Shown here in pieces: positions 9,036 through 18,413 of a DNA stretch of 27,008 nucleotides. Source of the DNA: a virus. The stretch's first letter is position 1, and each line of letters starts with the position of its first letter. The stretch covers positions 1 to 27,008 of IMG/VR virus record IMGVR_UViG_3300033108_000003. The stretch is one strand, 5' to 3'. The position numbers were made by a program, and so were the translations under genes. The notes beneath the pieces were generated by a model, which saw nothing but the letters and a program-made list of their open reading frames with translations, was not told where the DNA came from and did no database searches.

Positions 9036-9064
9036 AGCTTAACCCCTTTCTCCGCCCATTGCAA
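9036..9064 (-). promoter_or_regulatory. Candidate leftward promoter for the repressor unit
   Basis: On the minus strand TTGCAA (9059-9064) and TAAGCT (9036-9041) are spaced by 17 bases. The match to sigma-70 boxes is modest (4/6 and 3/6). It would give a leader of about 35 bases before the repressor ATG. It is supported mainly by position. Confidence 0.35.
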
Positions 9065-9080
9065 CTATTTATTTAGGTAT

Positions 9081-9112
9081 CTAAAAAAATATTCACGCGC
9101 ATATTTTTTTAG
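9081..9112. promoter_or_regulatory. Perfect 12-bp inverted repeat, probable operator
   Basis: CTAAAAAAATAT (9081-9092) and ATATTTTTTTAG (9101-9112) are exact inverted copies around TCACGCGC. The element ends one base before the rightward -35 box and lies upstream of the leftward promoter. A repressor bound here could shut both. A second short inverted pair, AGGTATC (9075-9081) and GATACCT (9137-9143), brackets the rightward promoter. Confidence 0.6.
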
Positions 9113-11990: not shown

Positions 11991-12617
11991 ATGGAAGACT
12001 TGACCGGAGAAGTATGGAAGCCTGTTGTTGGTTTAGAAAGTGACTACGAGATTAGCAGCAAGGGGCGGCTTAGAGCAATCTACCGCAGCAGAAGCAGTTT
12101 ATGGCGCAATTCAGGTAATCCCATTGTAAGGCTACTGTCTCCACGTATCAGCAACGGTTACTACAGGACGCATATTGGATTGGTGCATAGGCTTGTTGCC
12201 AGAGCTTTTTGCGACGGTTTTGCACCCGACCTTGTGGTGAATCACTTGAACGGAGTGAGAACAGACAACCGGCCTGAAAACCTTGAATGGTGCACGCCCA
12301 AGCAGAACGCTCAACACGCATGGGAAACTGGCTTGTGCAATGAGGAAACGCGGGCCAAGATGAGCGCCAAGGCTAAGTTGAGGACCGGAAATAAAAACTC
12401 CTGTTGGCGTGGCAAGGTGCAAATTTCAAAGTTAAACGGGACGGTAGTTCATATTGCAGACGATTTGAGGGGGGCGGCGGAATGGGTCAGAGAGCACACG
12501 CAATTCAAACAGGCAGCAAAGGGGAACATCAGCTTAGCTTGCAATGGGAAGAGGGGGATAAAGAAGATGTACGGGCACTATTTCAGCTACATCAAGGAGG
12601 TCCGGACGCCAGTTTAG
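11991..12617 (+). CDS. Free-standing HNH homing endonuclease (NUMOD4-HNH)
   Basis: This 208-residue protein starts after AGGAGGG. Residues 7-30 (EVWKPVVGLESDYEISSKG) are a NUMOD4 DNA-binding motif. VHRLVARAF (65-73), NHLNG (84-88), DNRPENLEW (92-100) and a final His near 109 form the HNH_3 nuclease. The C-terminus (FKQAAKGNISLACNG, then GHYFSYIKE) is a NUMOD1-type recognition element. It should make site-specific DNA breaks that promote its own spread. No intron core was recognised around it. The gene after it has no conventional start, which suggests that insertion disturbed that gene's 5' end. Confidence 0.9.
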   Translation: MEDLTGEVWKPVVGLESDYEISSKGRLRAIYRSRSSLWRNSGNPIVRLLSPRISNGYYRTHIGLVHRLVARAFCDGFAPDLVVNHLNGVRTDNRPENLEWCTPKQNAQHAWETGLCNEETRAKMSAKAKLRTGNKNSCWRGKVQISKLNGTVVHIADDLRGAAEWVREHTQFKQAAKGNISLACNGKRGIKKMYGHYFSYIKEVRTPV

Positions 12618-12643
12618 AGCATCTTATCGGTGCAATTAAGGGC

Positions 12644-13270
12644 ATGAGCGAAGAGGGCAAGATTGCTTTCATCAACAAGGTCAAGCTGGCATTGCACGAA
12701 ATTTCGCCTTTTAAAACCGAGCCTGTCGATTGCGTCATCTGGGTCAAAGGCACTAGCGTTAAGGCTAACGACTACAACCCAAATTCCGTCGCTCCGGTCG
12801 AAATGGAGTTACTGAAAACCTCTATCCTTGCTGACGGATACACACAACCCATTGTCACCTTTCCCGTTGACGATCACAGAGAAGTAGTTGATGGTTTTCA
12901 CCGCAACCGCGTGGGAAAAGAGTGTGAAGAGGTAAAAGCCCGCGTTCTCGGCTACCTTCCTGTTGTAACCATCAACGCAGACCGCACAGACAAAAATGAC
13001 CGCATTGCGGCCACTATTCGCCATAACAGGGCGCGTGGCAAACACAAAGTGGAGTCCATGTCTGACATCGTGATAGAGCTCAAAAAGCGCAACTGGTCCG
13101 ATGCCAAGATATGCAAGGAACTTGGCATGGATGAGGATGAGGTGTTGCGCCTGTGCCAAGTGTCGGGGCTGGTGGAAGTCTTTGGTGATGCCGAGTTCAG
13201 CAAAGCCTGGGATGCGGAAATCTTCTCGGATGAAGACATTGACTTGCTTGACGAGGAGGATATCGCGTAA
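12644..13270 (+). CDS. ibrB: IbrB-like ParB-fold protein, 5' end uncertain
   Basis: From the ATG at 12644 the product is 208 residues. The ParB/Srx fold is clear: SVKANDYNPNSVAPVEMELL (39-58), the box GYTQPIV, the catalytic-type DGFHRNRVGKE (83-93), and IRHNRARGKH. An HTH (SDAKICKELGMDEDEVLRL) follows. This is the IbrB type that pairs with IbrA. The frame stays open upstream through the endonuclease end, and about a dozen upstream residues (ASLEHLIGAIKG) resemble the usual IbrB N-terminus. Yet no ATG, GTG or TTG lies there behind the AAGGAGG at 12594. The true start is therefore unclear or has been lost. ParB-fold proteins bind or hydrolyse nucleotides; this one may act on DNA or phosphorylate a partner. 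Confidence 0.8.
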   Translation: MSEEGKIAFINKVKLALHEISPFKTEPVDCVIWVKGTSVKANDYNPNSVAPVEMELLKTSILADGYTQPIVTFPVDDHREVVDGFHRNRVGKECEEVKARVLGYLPVVTINADRTDKNDRIAATIRHNRARGKHKVESMSDIVIELKKRNWSDAKICKELGMDEDEVLRLCQVSGLVEVFGDAEFSKAWDAEIFSDEDIDLLDEEDIA

Positions 13271-13692
13271 TGGAGCGCATCTACCACACATGGGACAAGT
13301 GGGAGTGTTACCCCGCTGGCTTCTACGAAAACAATCCGCCGGACAAGATGACGCGGGAAGAGGCCGAAGCATTTTACCGTGACTTCCTAGTCGACATCCC
13401 GCTTTTTGAAGCCAGCATGGAACGGGTAATCACCGAGTGGAAAAACTCTTGTGAGCACTACCTTACCAATGACCGCATGAACCGGATAGCCTGGATGGGG
13501 CAAAGCGCCGTTTGCATCCATGCCGGTGTCCCCTCCAAGTTTCGCGGCGGCTACAACCTCTTAACTCCAGATCAACAGCGGGCGGCAGATGAAGCAGCTT
13601 TGCGCTACATGAATAAGTGGTTTGTTGCCAACGGCTATCCTGAATTATCATGGTCAGAGGCACAGTCTAGGACGGAGGCCAACCTGTACTGA
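13270..13692 (+). CDS. Conserved-type protein between ibrB and ibrA
   Basis: This 140-residue protein overlaps ibrB by TAATG and the next gene by TGATG, with GAGGAGG upstream. It opens with the aromatic segment HTWDKWECYPAGFYE, continues with WKNSCEHYLTNDRMNRIAWMGQSA around residues 57-80, and RFRGGYNLL-like text near 93. Conserved-looking Cys, His, Glu, Asn and Arg residues suggest an enzyme or a tight partner, not a filler protein. I have a recollection of similar proteins beside phage IbrA genes but no function for them. Its stoichiometric coupling suggests a three-part complex. Confidence 0.65.
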   Translation: MERIYHTWDKWECYPAGFYENNPPDKMTREEAEAFYRDFLVDIPLFEASMERVITEWKNSCEHYLTNDRMNRIAWMGQSAVCIHAGVPSKFRGGYNLLTPDQQRAADEAALRYMNKWFVANGYPELSWSEAQSRTEANLY

Positions 13693-14897
13693 TGAAAACT
13701 AAACGCTATCTCGACATAGACGTGTTAACGGCGGCAAAAGAGCGCATAGCCTTCACGTTTGACAATTTCTCCCGCATGTTCATTTCTTTTTCCGGTGGCA
13801 AAGACAGCACCGTGATGTTTCACCTTGTGATGGAGGAGGCAAAGCAACGCGGGCGCAAGGTTGGTGTGATGCTGATTGACTTTGAGGCGCAGTACAAACA
13901 CACTTCTGACCACGCCTTAGAGCTGTTCCAGCAGTATCAGGACCATATTGACCTTTACTGGATTTGTCTGCCTATGGCCCTTCGTAACGCTGTAAGTAAT
14001 TTCGAGCCTTCATGGACCTGTTGGGAGCCTGGGCGTGAAAAGGATTGGGTGCGCCCTCTGCCTGACTTCCCCGGTGTTATTTCCGATCCCGCCTTTTTCC
14101 CTTTCTTTTCCCCGCGCATGGAGTTTGAAGAGTTTATAATCCTCTTTGCTGAATGGTATAGCCAAGGGGAGCCTTGCGCGGCCTTTGTCGGTATCCGTGC
14201 CGACGAGAGCCTTAACCGCTTCCGTACCATAGCCATTCACAATAAAGAGACGTTCCAGGGGAAGCGGTGGACAACTAAGATAGTGGATGAGGTTTACAAC
14301 GTCTATCCTATCTACGATTGGAAAACCAGCGACATTTGGGCGTATCACGCCAAAACCGGCAAGAGCCATAACAGGATTTACGATCTCATGCACCAAGCGG
14401 GCGTTCCTCTGGCTCAACAGCGCCTTTGCCAGCCTTACGGCGATGATCAACGGCGCGGCTTGTGGCTCTACCATATCCTTGAGCCTGAGACGTGGTACAA
14501 GGTCGTTTGCCGCGTCAACGGGGCCAATAGCGGGGCGCTTTACATCAACGAAACGGGTAATGTGACCGGCTACAACAAGATCACCAAACCGGACGGGCAT
14601 ACATGGAAGAGCTTTTGCAACCTGCTCCTTTCCACACTCCCCGAGAAGACGCGCAACCATTACATTTCCCGTTTCAAAGGCTTCATTTCTGGATGGAAGG
14701 GGCGCGGTTACGTTGACGGGATACCTGATGAAGCTCCGAAAGTACTGGAAGATGCTCATTGGGCTCCGAGCTGGCGGCGGCTGTGTAAGGTATTACTTCG
14801 CAACGACTGGTGGTGCAAAGGGTTAGGACTGACACAGCCGAAAAGTGAGGCTTACGGTAAATATCTCCAGATAAAGAAACAGCGACAGGAGGCGTAA
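13692..14897 (+). CDS. ibrA: IbrA-like PP-loop ATP pyrophosphatase (PAPS-reductase family + DUF3440)
   Basis: This 401-residue protein has the PP-loop SGGKDST at 34-40, which binds ATP and activates a substrate by adenylation. FVGIRADESLNRFRTI near 170-185 and YPIYDWKTSDIWAY near 205 complete the PAPS-reductase-like domain. The C-terminal 150 residues fit DUF3440: WKSFCNLLLSTLPEKTRNHY, then WAPSWRRLCKVLLRNDWWCKGL. The reductase nucleophile motif ECGxH is not seen, so sulfate reduction is unlikely. IbrA is known with IbrB as a regulator pair in E. coli, whose chemistry is unsettled. Here the pair may modify a nucleotide or nucleic acid. Confidence 0.85.
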   Translation: MKTKRYLDIDVLTAAKERIAFTFDNFSRMFISFSGGKDSTVMFHLVMEEAKQRGRKVGVMLIDFEAQYKHTSDHALELFQQYQDHIDLYWICLPMALRNAVSNFEPSWTCWEPGREKDWVRPLPDFPGVISDPAFFPFFSPRMEFEEFIILFAEWYSQGEPCAAFVGIRADESLNRFRTIAIHNKETFQGKRWTTKIVDEVYNVYPIYDWKTSDIWAYHAKTGKSHNRIYDLMHQAGVPLAQQRLCQPYGDDQRRGLWLYHILEPETWYKVVCRVNGANSGALYINETGNVTGYNKITKPDGHTWKSFCNLLLSTLPEKTRNHYISRFKGFISGWKGRGYVDGIPDEAPKVLEDAHWAPSWRRLCKVLLRNDWWCKGLGLTQPKSEAYGKYLQIKKQRQEA

Positions 14898-15191: not shown

Positions 15192-15272
15192 TTAGGTGAA
15201 GGGTTGAGCCGAAAGGCGCAGCCATGAACCGGGACACCCTACCAGAGACGGCCCTCTTTGGTAGGGTGTTTT
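15192..15272 (+). ncRNA. Candidate short structured RNA or attenuator leader
   Basis: Starting from the extended -10 at 15177-15185, transcription would begin near 15192 and meet a strong terminator at 15234. The roughly 80-base product contains a second stem, GGTTG/CAGCC enclosing GCC-GAAA-GGC (15202-15223). It matches no riboswitch or ribozyme consensus I can recall. It may be a small regulatory RNA or a leader that limits entry into the replication genes. The RNA itself is inferred. Confidence 0.4.
15234..15272 (+). terminator. Intrinsic terminator/attenuator upstream of the replication initiator
   Basis: ACACCCTACCA (15234-15244) pairs perfectly with TGGTAGGGTGT (15259-15269) around a 14-base loop, followed by TTTGCATTTTG. 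This is an 11-bp stem with a U-rich tail. It sits 33 bases before the initiator start codon, so readthrough or antitermination is needed for the genes behind it unless they have another promoter. Confidence 0.7.
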
Positions 15273-15304
15273 GCATTTTGATGCATTTTAGCAGGAGCGG
15301 CATT

Positions 15305-16033
15305 ATGTCAACAGGGTTTATCAAGCTCCACCGATGCCTTAAACAATCCGCCTTCTACAAAGATTCCGAGTATGTCCACCTTTGGGTTCACCTGCTCATG
15401 TCGGTTAACCGGACCCAAAAGCGGTTGAAGGTGGACAAAACGAACCAATACATAGTCCTTCTTCCCGGCCAAGTTTTGACCAGTAGAGACAAACTTTCGG
15501 AGCAAACCGGCATTTCAAGTTCCAAGATCCAACGAATTTTAAAATCGTTCGAAAGTGAACAGCAGATTGAACAGCAAACTTTTTCAAAATACCGTGTAAT
15601 ATCAATAACTAAGTGGCAACAATACCAACACACTGAACAGCAACTTGAACAGCAAGTGAACAGCAACCGAACAGCAAGTGAACAGCAAGTGAACACAAAC
15701 AAGAAGGAAGAGAAAGAGAAGAAAGAAGAAGAAAAACCACTACTGCGCGTCTCAGATGTTTCCGCTCTCTATCAAAAATACGCTGGCGTCAATGTAGTCA
15801 ACGGTGGGCAAGTGGCAGTGTTCCAAGACTTCATAAAACGATTTACCCCTGAAGCCATAGAAGAGGCATTTGCTGCCGCTGCCTCCGCCAACATTTCGAT
15901 ATCAGCGTTTTTGAACTGGTGCAAGACCCGGCTTGAGCGGACCCAACAGGCGCAAAAGACGGATCAAGGTAAAGCCACCGATGAGGGCGAAAAGGAAATC
16001 GCCTACTATCGCTCTTTGGGGTACGACCTATGA
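15305..16033 (+). CDS. Phage replication initiator / replisome organiser (HTH, O-like)
   Basis: This 242-residue protein starts seven bases after AGGAG. An upstream in-frame ATG at 15224 is excluded because it lies inside the terminator stem. Residues 1-110 (FIKLHRCLKQSAFYKDSEYVHLWVHLLM, then LSEQTGISSSKIQRILKSFE and ISITKWQQYQ) match the winged-helix N-terminus of phage replication proteins that load DnaB. A Gln-rich linker and an acidic/basic Lys-Glu run follow. The C-terminal domain (YQKYAGV, then FTPEAIEEAFAAAAS and FLNWCKTRL) resembles a DnaD-like or helicase-contacting module. The linker DNA carries an iteron array, as in lambda O. It overlaps the helicase gene by ATGA. Confidence 0.7.
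   Translation: MSTGFIKLHRCLKQSAFYKDSEYVHLWVHLLMSVNRTQKRLKVDKTNQYIVLLPGQVLTSRDKLSEQTGISSSKIQRILKSFESEQQIEQQTFSKYRVISITKWQQYQHTEQQLEQQVNSNRTASEQQVNTNKKEEKEKKEEEKPLLRVSDVSALYQKYAGVNVVNGGQVAVFQDFIKRFTPEAIEEAFAAAASANISISAFLNWCKTRLERTQQAQKTDQGKATDEGEKEIAYYRSLGYDL
15556..15736 (+). repeat. Iteron array and purine tract: probable replication origin
   Basis: Eight copies of TGAACAGCA occur at 15556, 15568, 15634, 15646, 15657, 15668 (CGAACAGCA), 15679 and 15690 (degenerate TGAACACAA). The last six are spaced 12, 11, 11, 11 and 11 bases, close to one helix turn. Because 11 is not a multiple of three, copies fall in all three reading frames of the host gene, so the repeat is kept at DNA level. An AT-rich segment (15577-15630) separates the two groups. 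A 36-base uninterrupted purine run (15701-15736) follows. Iterons plus an asymmetric tract inside an initiator gene is the lambda ori layout. Confidence 0.7.
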
Positions 16034-17346
16034 CCTATGCTGACGAAACAGCCGAAAAAGAAATAATCGGCAACTTGTTGAACGATGCTGATTGTGCCGT
16101 GGAGGTGATGGGCTTCCTCTCTCCAGAGGATTTTACCAGCGTTGAACTGGCAGCGGCCTATGGTGCTTTTTGTGAATGCTTTGCCAATGCGGAGCAGGTT
16201 GATGTGCGAATGCTGGCAGAAAGGTCAAAAGCCCCTGTTCCGCTTCTTGCCGAATGTATGGATTTGGGCTTTATGTCGGCTAACATCAAATGGAGGGCTA
16301 CAAAGGTAGTCGAACATTCTCATCGCCGCCGTACCATTTTGGAATGCCGCCAACTTGCCGCCTCCCTAGGAACTATGACTAGCGCCGAAATAAGCGGCAA
16401 ACTTTCTGAGATTGCGGCCGGCATAACGCTAAAATCTAGCGACAAGAAGGTATACGGAGCCAATGAGCTTGTCCTGCGAGTGGCGGCAAGTCAGCAACAG
16501 CGGTTCAAGGATAGGGGTAAGGTGGACGGCATATTGACCGGCTACCGGCTGACTGATGAACAGGTGAGGGGGTTAAAGGGCAAACGTGTTACTGTCATTG
16601 CCGCAGGTACAGGTTTTGGGAAGACAAGCCTTGCACTCAACCTATTCAACAACGCAGTCAGGGCAAACGTGCCTAGCCTTTACGTGAGTAATGAGAACGA
16701 TGTAGACGATAACCTTGACCGGCTGTGCGCTATGACGGCTAATGCCGACATGAAGCAGGTCGAGTCTGGGTTAGCTTATGAGAGCGTATGTTTCAAATTC
16801 CAGAAGCTTTACCAAGGCAAGAACGCTTTTATGTCCGACAACTCCCCGCGCAACATAGACGAGGTGTGCGCCACGATCAGCAAGTATGTCATTCAGCATG
16901 GTATCAAGCTTGCCGTGGTGGACTACATCGGGGAAATTAGCGGGGAAGTGAAACACCGCGAAAGCGAAGAGGCTATGTATGCCCGATACAGCCAGCGGTT
17001 GGTAGACTGCGCCCGCACTCACAACGTGCATATCATTATCCTGGCGCAGCTCAACCGGGAGGGGAACAAAAAAGGTAAGCCGACAAAGGCTGAGTTGGCG
17101 TTGTGTTTCCGGCTGGCTCAAAAGGCGCATACCATGATGCTTTTTTGGCAAGACGAAACAAGCAACGGCGAGACACAAGACGTTATCACCATCGAGAAAA
17201 ACCGGCAAGGACCGGCCAAGATTGACATTGCAGTAACCTTTAACCGCCCGACACAACTGATTAAAGAGGAAGGCTTTTGGTCAAGCAGCAAAAAGCAGAT
17301 ATTCAGGCCAAGGGTTAATGACCCTGACGCCCCTTGCCCCTATTAA
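16030..17346 (+). CDS. DnaB-type replicative helicase
   Basis: This 438-residue protein has an N-terminal helical domain (residues 1-130, beginning AEKEIIGNLLND) and a RecA-like ATPase core. The Walker A is AAGTGFGKTS at 191-200, a variant of the usual GRPxMGKT. The Walker B is LAVVDYIGEI near 296, followed by the sensor segment IIILAQLNRE and a late arginine-finger region (ITIEKNRQGP). It should unwind DNA at the phage fork, loaded by the initiator encoded just upstream, with which it shares an ATGA overlap. The length is near that of small phage DnaB proteins. Confidence 0.9.
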   Translation: MTYADETAEKEIIGNLLNDADCAVEVMGFLSPEDFTSVELAAAYGAFCECFANAEQVDVRMLAERSKAPVPLLAECMDLGFMSANIKWRATKVVEHSHRRRTILECRQLAASLGTMTSAEISGKLSEIAAGITLKSSDKKVYGANELVLRVAASQQQRFKDRGKVDGILTGYRLTDEQVRGLKGKRVTVIAAGTGFGKTSLALNLFNNAVRANVPSLYVSNENDVDDNLDRLCAMTANADMKQVESGLAYESVCFKFQKLYQGKNAFMSDNSPRNIDEVCATISKYVIQHGIKLAVVDYIGEISGEVKHRESEEAMYARYSQRLVDCARTHNVHIIILAQLNREGNKKGKPTKAELALCFRLAQKAHTMMLFWQDETSNGETQDVITIEKNRQGPAKIDIAVTFNRPTQLIKEEGFWSSSKKQIFRPRVNDPDAPCPY

Positions 17347-17355
17347 GGAGATGTT

Positions 17356-17553
17356 ATGATTGCCAAGGATTTGTTGGGGGATGAAGTGTGGGAGTGTTCA
17401 CAGGAAGAGGCTAGGGAAATTTGGGAAAAAGACCCAAATAACCGTTGGCGCATATGGACCCATGAAGAGGTTGATGCCCATATGTTGAGCGATGCAGAAA
17501 CTATAGCCGGGATCATTCAACTAAAAAAAGAACGACCTGGGAGTTGTTTGTAG
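17356..17553 (+). CDS. Hypothetical protein after the helicase
   Basis: This 65-residue protein starts after AAGGAGATGTT. It is acidic and Trp-rich (EVWECSQEEAREIWEKDPNNRWRIW, residues 10-34) with a helical C-terminus. No family is recognised. A small hairpin (GCTATC/GATAGC, 17553-17570) follows its stop. It may belong with the helicase, or with the PP-loop gene 62 bases downstream. Confidence 0.55.
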   Translation: MIAKDLLGDEVWECSQEEAREIWEKDPNNRWRIWTHEEVDAHMLSDAETIAGIIQLKKERPGSCL

Positions 17554-17615
17554 CTATCCGCCGCGATAGCAGCGAAGAAGGCGAAACCCGGCAGGGTCGG
17601 GTAAGGAGAGAGAAG

Positions 17616-18413
17616 ATGTTGATGAGAGAGGATTTGTTTGGGGCGGTTGATTTGGAGGACATAGCAATAAAGCGGCTTCAAATGTACGAACCGCCAGAGG
17701 GATACATTCTGTGTAACTCCTATGGCAAAGATTCGTGCGTGATAGAGGCATTAGCAAAAAAAGCGGGTGTAAAGTTTGAAAGCCACCATTCGCACACGGG
17801 GTTAGACGCACCAGAGCTTGTTTATTTTGGTCGTGCCAACTTCCCTAACACAATTGTGCATCCTCCGCTAGAAACGATTGAGCAACTAATAATCAAGAAA
17901 GGAGTACCGCCAACAAGGGGAGTTGCGTACTGCTGCCAATACCTCAAAGAAAATTTGCCCGTGTCTTCAGGGCGGCGGATTATTCTAGGCGTGAGGTGGG
18001 CTGAAAGTGTTAAGCGGTCAAGTAGAAGGGCTGTTGAGCAGTGTTACAGGGACGTATCAAAGACATATATCAACCCTATCATTGAATGGACCAATGACGA
18101 GTTGTGGCAGTACATTAGGGAAGAGGAAATCCCTTATTGTGCCGGATATGACAGGGGGGTGAAAAGGTATGGGTGCATCGGTTGCCCAAAGGCCGGACCC
18201 GAGCAAATGAAAAAAGAATTTGAGATGTACCCCAAATACTACGACCGTTTTATGCGGATATTTGCCAAATCGTGTCTTACCACTCAACAGCCAAACAAAA
18301 GGACTGGTGAGCCTCGCAAAATCATATTTCGCAACGCGCAGGAGACTATGGACTGGTGGCTAAGTAAGGCTGCACATGCCGCCGATCCGGATCAAACTAT
18401 TATGTTTGAGTAA
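17616..18413 (+). CDS. PP-loop ATP pyrophosphatase of PAPS/APS-reductase family with Fe-S cysteine motif
   Basis: The ATG seven bases after AAGGAG gives 265 residues; an upstream frame from 17544 has no ribosome site. The PP-loop is NSYGKDS at 34-40. Adjacent cysteines at 106-107 (YCC) and CIGC at 187-190 give CC-x79-CxxC, the spacing used by assimilatory APS reductases and related enzymes to hold a [4Fe-4S] cluster. GVRWAESVKRSSRR and INPIIEWTNDELWQYI complete the fold. The catalytic ECGxH tail of true reductases is absent. The enzyme probably adenylates a substrate and handles sulfur in another way, as DndC-type proteins do. It lies 2.5 kb after the ibr cassette. Confidence 0.8.
   Translation: MLMREDLFGAVDLEDIAIKRLQMYEPPEGYILCNSYGKDSCVIEALAKKAGVKFESHHSHTGLDAPELVYFGRANFPNTIVHPPLETIEQLIIKKGVPPTRGVAYCCQYLKENLPVSSGRRIILGVRWAESVKRSSRRAVEQCYRDVSKTYINPIIEWTNDELWQYIREEEIPYCAGYDRGVKRYGCIGCPKAGPEQMKKEFEMYPKYYDRFMRIFAKSCLTTQQPNKRTGEPRKIIFRNAQETMDWWLSKAAHAADPDQTIMFE

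Follow-up and report, generated by a model that had tools for sequence, protein, structure and literature searches.

A probable replication origin of one-helix-turn iterons inside a DnaD/O-like phage initiator gene

The window analysed here, a 27,008-nucleotide stretch of viral DNA (positions 1 to 27,008 of IMG/VR record IMGVR_UViG_3300033108_000003), carries a DnaD-like or O-like initiator gene followed by a gene for a DnaB-type replicative helicase (Table 1), an order that corresponds to the gene 18-12 layout of P22. The initiator is likely to start at the ATG at 15305, since the upstream in-frame ATG, at 15224, falls inside an intrinsic terminator hairpin. Further upstream, a ParB-like gene (12404-13270) is followed by a PAPS-reductase/DUF3440 gene (13692-14897; phrog_2159, phrog_2302), an arrangement resembling the IbrB/IbrA pair; within the latter gene, the + strand has an uninterrupted run of 22 pyrimidines (14092-14113). 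A second PAPS-reductase-like gene (17544-18413), which PADLOC weakly matches to BrxP (E 3e-13), is found just past the helicase gene.

Table 1. Features of the initiator locus, in window coordinates
Feature	Position	Strand	Description
Intrinsic terminator hairpin	15230..15273	+	Upstream of initiator gene; 19-pair stem, T-rich tail
Initiator gene, DnaD-like / O-like	15305..16033	+	Winged-helix domain (predicted), residues ~1-108; disordered linker, ~109-165; helical C-terminal part
Upstream iteron pair	15556..15576	+	Exact matches at 15556 and 15568; spacing 12; in sequence that encodes the wing of the winged helix
A+T-rich spacer, candidate site of unwinding	15577..15633		Conserved terminal part of the winged-helix domain also encoded here
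Main iteron array	15634..15700	+	15634, 15646, 15657 (exact); 15668 (CGAACAGCA, one mismatch); 15679 (exact); 15690 (TGAACACAA, degenerate); period 11, first step 12
Purine run; by analogy with lambda ori, a candidate site of unwinding or helicase loading	15701..15736	+	36 bases; adjoins array
DnaB-type replicative helicase gene	16030..17346	+	Overlaps end of initiator gene; PF03796 (E 1e-31), PF00772, phrog_19

The initiator protein matches the profiles phrog_2514 (DnaD-like helicase loader, E 7e-31) and phrog_345 ('replication initiation O-like', E 1.6e-11). Searches of the protein against Pfam (PF04492, PF06970 and Phage_rep_org_N, PF09681, among them) and TIGR01610 gave no match, and its relatives KLEP17-4 and Orisa03 have only sub-threshold matches to PF09681. 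Membership of the lambda-O domain family proper, which might be read into the comparison with lambda gene O drawn in an earlier note on this DNA, fails on the lack of a PF04492 match. By tblastn the protein is 51% identical to one from KLEP17-4 over residues 3-131, and further matches are found in Orisa phages and in the O or gene-18 proteins of Pantoea, Klebsiella, Sf6, HK022 and P22-like phages, with E-values of 1e-9 to 1e-12 for the gp18 proteins of Sf6, HK022 and P22-like phages. An AlphaFold2 model has pLDDT values of 90-98 for residues 11-100 and below 65 for the linker encoded by the array, and on this model the N-terminal domain is a winged helix. The best PDB matches of the model in Foldseek are the RepA_N initiators 4pql and 4pt7 and DnaD, with a probability of ~1.00 but with E-values above a 0.001 threshold (0.006-0.011 for 4pql and 4pt7). 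A PDB search with the protein sequence gave just weak winged-helix matches.

Letter matching over the initiator gene (15305-16033) finds six exact copies of the 9-mer TGAACAGCA, one copy that departs from it by a single T to C change, and one degenerate copy. The start-to-start steps of the last six copies are 12, 11, 11, 11 and 11 bp. Counted from the ATG at 15305, the eight copies fall in codon phases 2, 2, 2, 2, 1, 0, 2 and 1, and they are read as the peptides EQQ, NS and TA. The earlier note had described eight copies of just these three grades, the last six spaced 11-12 bases apart and all three codon phases and these peptides represented, and its description is correct to the base. It had also placed an AT-rich stretch between the two clusters and a 36-base purine run after the array. 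Both are present: the 57 bp between the clusters are 68% A+T, compared with 54% for the whole initiator gene, and the purine run is exactly 36 bases long, the longest in the window, where the next longest is 18. Both regions are also predicted to be unstable. Of all 40-bp segments in the 27-kb window, 15575-15614 ranks second in instability and 15697-15736 falls among the six least stable. Tandem Repeats Finder, run on the whole window, reports only the purine tract and 15634-15695 (5.5 copies, period 11), making the array in this gene the sole short-period tandem array in the window.

The least stable 40-bp segment of all (9057-9096) lies at a switch from leftward to rightward genes, beside a repressor-like gene, and is probably a divergent early promoter region. 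Cumulative GC skew has its minimum near 9 kb and tracks gene orientation, which, in a linear and incomplete fragment, makes it uninformative on the origin.

Could the array have arisen by chance, given the protein that the gene encodes? We reshuffled synonymous codons within the initiator gene, keeping both protein and codon usage, in 20,000 trials. No shuffle reached six exact copies of TGAACAGCA, which bears out the statement in the earlier note that repetition at the protein level cannot account for them. Nor did any shuffle contain any 9-mer repeated six times or equal the gene's own combined self-match at lags 11 and 22, and seven copies with one mismatch allowed were reached in only five. 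Over the whole window the count of the 9-mer with at most one mismatch is 9, against 6.7 expected, and is not significant alone. What departs from chance is the clustering and phasing of the 9-mer, rather than its count in the window as a whole.

Arrays of this kind have precedents in phage initiator genes. The database records of Sf6 and P22 annotate a rep_origin inside the homologous gene, and gene 18 of phage L contains six imprecise 11-bp repeats, TGTCCAACGGA, that have been named as its likely origin and contrasted with P22 and lambda, where the repeats number four and are ~20 bp long (PMC8022706). Salmonella phage L (with ST64T/ST160 and Sf6) resembles the window in its homologous N domain, its in-gene 11-bp direct repeats and the DnaB-type helicase gene next to them. 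The units differ, that of the window being TGAACAGCAAG, as does their layout: phage L has 3+2 copies in clusters 66 bp apart, both in the linker, and P22-type genes likewise have two linker clusters at this distance, whereas the window has 2+6 copies with the first pair in the domain-coding part. Lambda likewise has iterons in the middle of its initiator gene, then an A+T-rich, purine-skewed tract, with a helicase-loading gene next. There the iterons are inverted repeats of ~18 bp, ~20-23 bp apart (PMC7466680), and lambda-O genes are enriched at lags 19 and 22-24 (range 19-24), with no excess at 11. Lambda O also carries PF04492/TIGR01610, neither of which the window protein matches, and lambda uses the loader P whereas the window phage has its own DnaB-type helicase. 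The comparison with lambda made in the earlier note holds for the layout and for the shorter, one-turn unit, but such units also occur in phage L (PMC8022706) and do not set this phage apart.

Two other groups are informative. Tuc2009 Rep (orf16) and TP901-1 orf13 are, like the window protein, DnaD-like phage initiators with origin repeats in the gene, although their N domains, unlike that of the window, are undetected by the family profile. Tuc2009 Rep is described as binding direct repeats inside its own gene that serve as origin, and the in-gene origin repeats of both phages are reported as experimentally tested (PMC8965321). The Tuc2009 database record likewise notes an origin within the Rep gene, where we find four units 11 bp apart; TP901-1 was rejected as a further 11-bp example because it has no 11-bp period. 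Gene-internal origins of this kind were already known, from phage L gene 18, with its published 11-bp iterons, and from Tuc2009 rep. RepA_N plasmids (pSK41, pTZ2162, pUSA03) have a winged-helix N domain, as the window protein is predicted to have, and an origin in the linker-coding middle of the gene, where the window has its array. Their origins lie in the linker-coding part of rep, the linker is dispensable as protein, and in plasmid pPR9 the N domain and origin have been replaced together by an N domain and origin of phage type (PMC5703833). The position of the array in the gene thus agrees, but the period differs. RepA_N Rep boxes are semi-palindromic in the family (PMC7145576), the pUSA03 rep gene has four boxes 23 bp apart, and in 16 RepA_N genes lags 22-23 are enriched and 11 is not; the window protein, in addition, lacks PF06970. 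We considered pUSA03 as a phage-plasmid hybrid initiator and rejected it, its rep being an ordinary RepA_N gene with period 23.

These precedents bear on the possibility that the array is an operator, through which the initiator would control the replication operon, at the level of transcription or translation, while replication began elsewhere. Autoregulation is common among initiators, and the sites do lie in the first replication gene. The array lies ~330 bp inside it, however, with no promoter-like site above chance found nearby, and database records or papers give the homologous arrays of P22, Sf6, L and Tuc2009 as origins. We therefore regard an operator as unlikely.

The period recurs in related genes. 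We collected 143 loci with a family member, which reduce to 74 that are non-redundant at 75% identity. Four of these (L144, L146, L149 and L154) are biased, as they were retrieved by scanning viral contigs for TGAACAGCAANNTGAACAGCAA, a DNA pattern made from the array; that scan found 16 contigs, just four of them with a detectable family member. In the linkers of the 74 relatives, self-match at lags 11 and 22 is 6.9 and 5.9 times the synonymous-shuffle mean, with other lags at 0.75-2.7 times. A combined lag-11 and lag-22 score of at least 20 is reached by 72% of family linkers, compared with 0.26% of the 1145 ORF segments drawn from the same loci as controls. In an independent set of 28 Bacillales genes, chosen by protein profile alone and by no repeat, the lag-11 self-match is 296 against 45 expected (6.6-fold). 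At least three chained copies are present in 61 of the 74 relatives, at spacings of 11 (164 cases), 12 (35) and 10 (3), and in 22 of these 61 arrays the first step is 12, as in the window. There is no clear array in about a fifth of the relatives.

The flanks of the array also recur. Extra copies of the unit occur 59-82 bp upstream of relatives' arrays (25 observed, compared with 8.4 in synonymous shuffles), as one or two copies in the part of the gene that encodes the winged helix. Most of them precede the array by 65-67 or 77-79 bp, and they resemble the window pair at 15556 and 15568. In the 60 bp after family arrays, A+T is 0.665 against 0.602 for the gene, and purines 0.666 against 0.590. 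The units are no more self-complementary than shuffled units, and palindromic units of the kind expected for dimer sites were rejected on this ground.

Selection could instead act on the flexible, Q/N-rich linker as a peptide, with the DNA repeat merely following. Family linkers are indeed Q/N/T/K-rich and disordered, and some relatives have a period that is a multiple of the codon (9 or 12); where it is 12 bp, as in L109, L127, L149, L243 and L245, synonymous shuffling cannot separate repetition of DNA from repetition of peptide. An 11-bp period, by comparison, cycles through all three frames, so that a repeated peptide cannot produce it, and the shuffles of the window gene argue in the same direction. 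The earlier note had named, as an outcome that would count against an origin, relatives that keep the peptide and lose the DNA repeat. What we find is the reverse: relatives swap both the unit and the linker peptide, yet retain the DNA period. The substitutions within the arrays point the same way. The mismatch copy at 15668 sits in phase 0, the sole phase in which TGA would be an in-frame stop, a detail absent from the earlier note. Across the 71 arrays of relatives there are 18 copies whose phase would make an unaltered unit read as a stop codon; 16 of them have exactly one base changed, inside the stop triplet, and the remaining positions of stop-phase copies are kept as well as those of other copies (mismatch rate 0.083, compared with 0.113). 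The array is a DNA-level feature under DNA-level constraint, and selection on the peptide is a very improbable source of it.

With what, then, does the unit vary? Unit sequences differ widely among relatives (GAACAGCAAGT, TGTCCAACGGA, TTACCAACAGA, CAACAAATCAA and GGCAAGCAAAG are examples). In Sf6 and HK022 the last 390 nt of the gene are 99.5% identical, while the N domains are only 46% identical and the iterons are different, and Staphylococcus SP5 and 23MRA show the same pattern of exchange. Conversely, the window and KLEP17-4 have the N domain (46%) and the iteron unit in common and differ in the C domain (25%). Similarity between units is correlated with the identity of the N domains (Mantel r 0.26, 0/2000 permutations) and hardly with that of the C domains (0.07). 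By these comparisons the array travels with the N domain, and hardly with the C domain, although, as it abuts the N-domain coding sequence, linkage alone could yield the correlation and the swaps and Mantel test are supporting rather than decisive. That the repeats are mainly short homologies promoting exchange of N- and C-terminal domains between phages, as the mosaic junctions near the array in Sf6/HK022 and SP5/23MRA might suggest, is hardly credible, since the iterons move with the N domain, exchange does not break inside them, and units that differ between exchanging phages offer little shared homology for recombination.

We conclude that the array is most probably, at a probability of about 0.86, a gene-internal iteron replication origin in the linker-coding part of the gene, bound head-to-tail, we infer, by the gene's own product. 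The earlier note had likewise proposed a probable origin in a replication gene, and the synonymous shuffles, the homology with P22, Sf6, HK022 and phage L and the 11-bp period across the set of 74 relatives all favour it. The sequence suggests how binding, stacking, unwinding, helicase loading and the start of replication at the array might proceed. The initiator would use its N-terminal winged-helix domain to bind the 11-bp direct repeats. As these are non-palindromic, all run in the same direction and are one helix turn apart, its protomers would line up head-to-tail along a single face of the DNA. This complex could then open the adjacent purine- and A+T-rich tract, or the A+T-rich gap between the iteron clusters, and the DnaB-type helicase encoded directly downstream would be passed onto the exposed strand.

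For the window phage alone this is an ordinary, well-supported origin prediction. The wider interest lies in a one-turn rule for the family as a whole, set against iterons spaced two turns apart, for, to judge from the relatives, the one-turn arrangement recurs across a large phage initiator gene family in several bacterial phyla. We did not find one-turn phasing across the family stated in the open-access literature searched, though the review by Weigel and Seitz (2006) may cover part of it. As a general rule, which we favour somewhat over its negation, the large DnaD/O-like phage initiator family (Proteobacteria, Firmicutes, Bacteroidota and other phyla) would keep an origin of non-palindromic, one-turn iterons within the gene, their unit hypervariable and paired with the N domain, whereas lambda O and RepA_N have (semi-)palindromic iterons two turns apart. 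Low-complexity linkers such as NNKRTTNEQQTNTNK would then simply result from translating an iteron in all three frames.

Such a rule would account for the low-complexity Q/N/T/K linkers of DnaD-like and O-like initiators, and would provide a route, from sequence alone, to the origin and recognition unit of phages and prophages annotated just as DnaD-like or O-like. The dozens of matched pairs of N domain and unit would be a data set provided by nature, from which to work out the recognition code of winged-helix initiators and to ask whether DNA is opened alike at head-to-tail sites one turn apart and at palindromic sites two turns apart.
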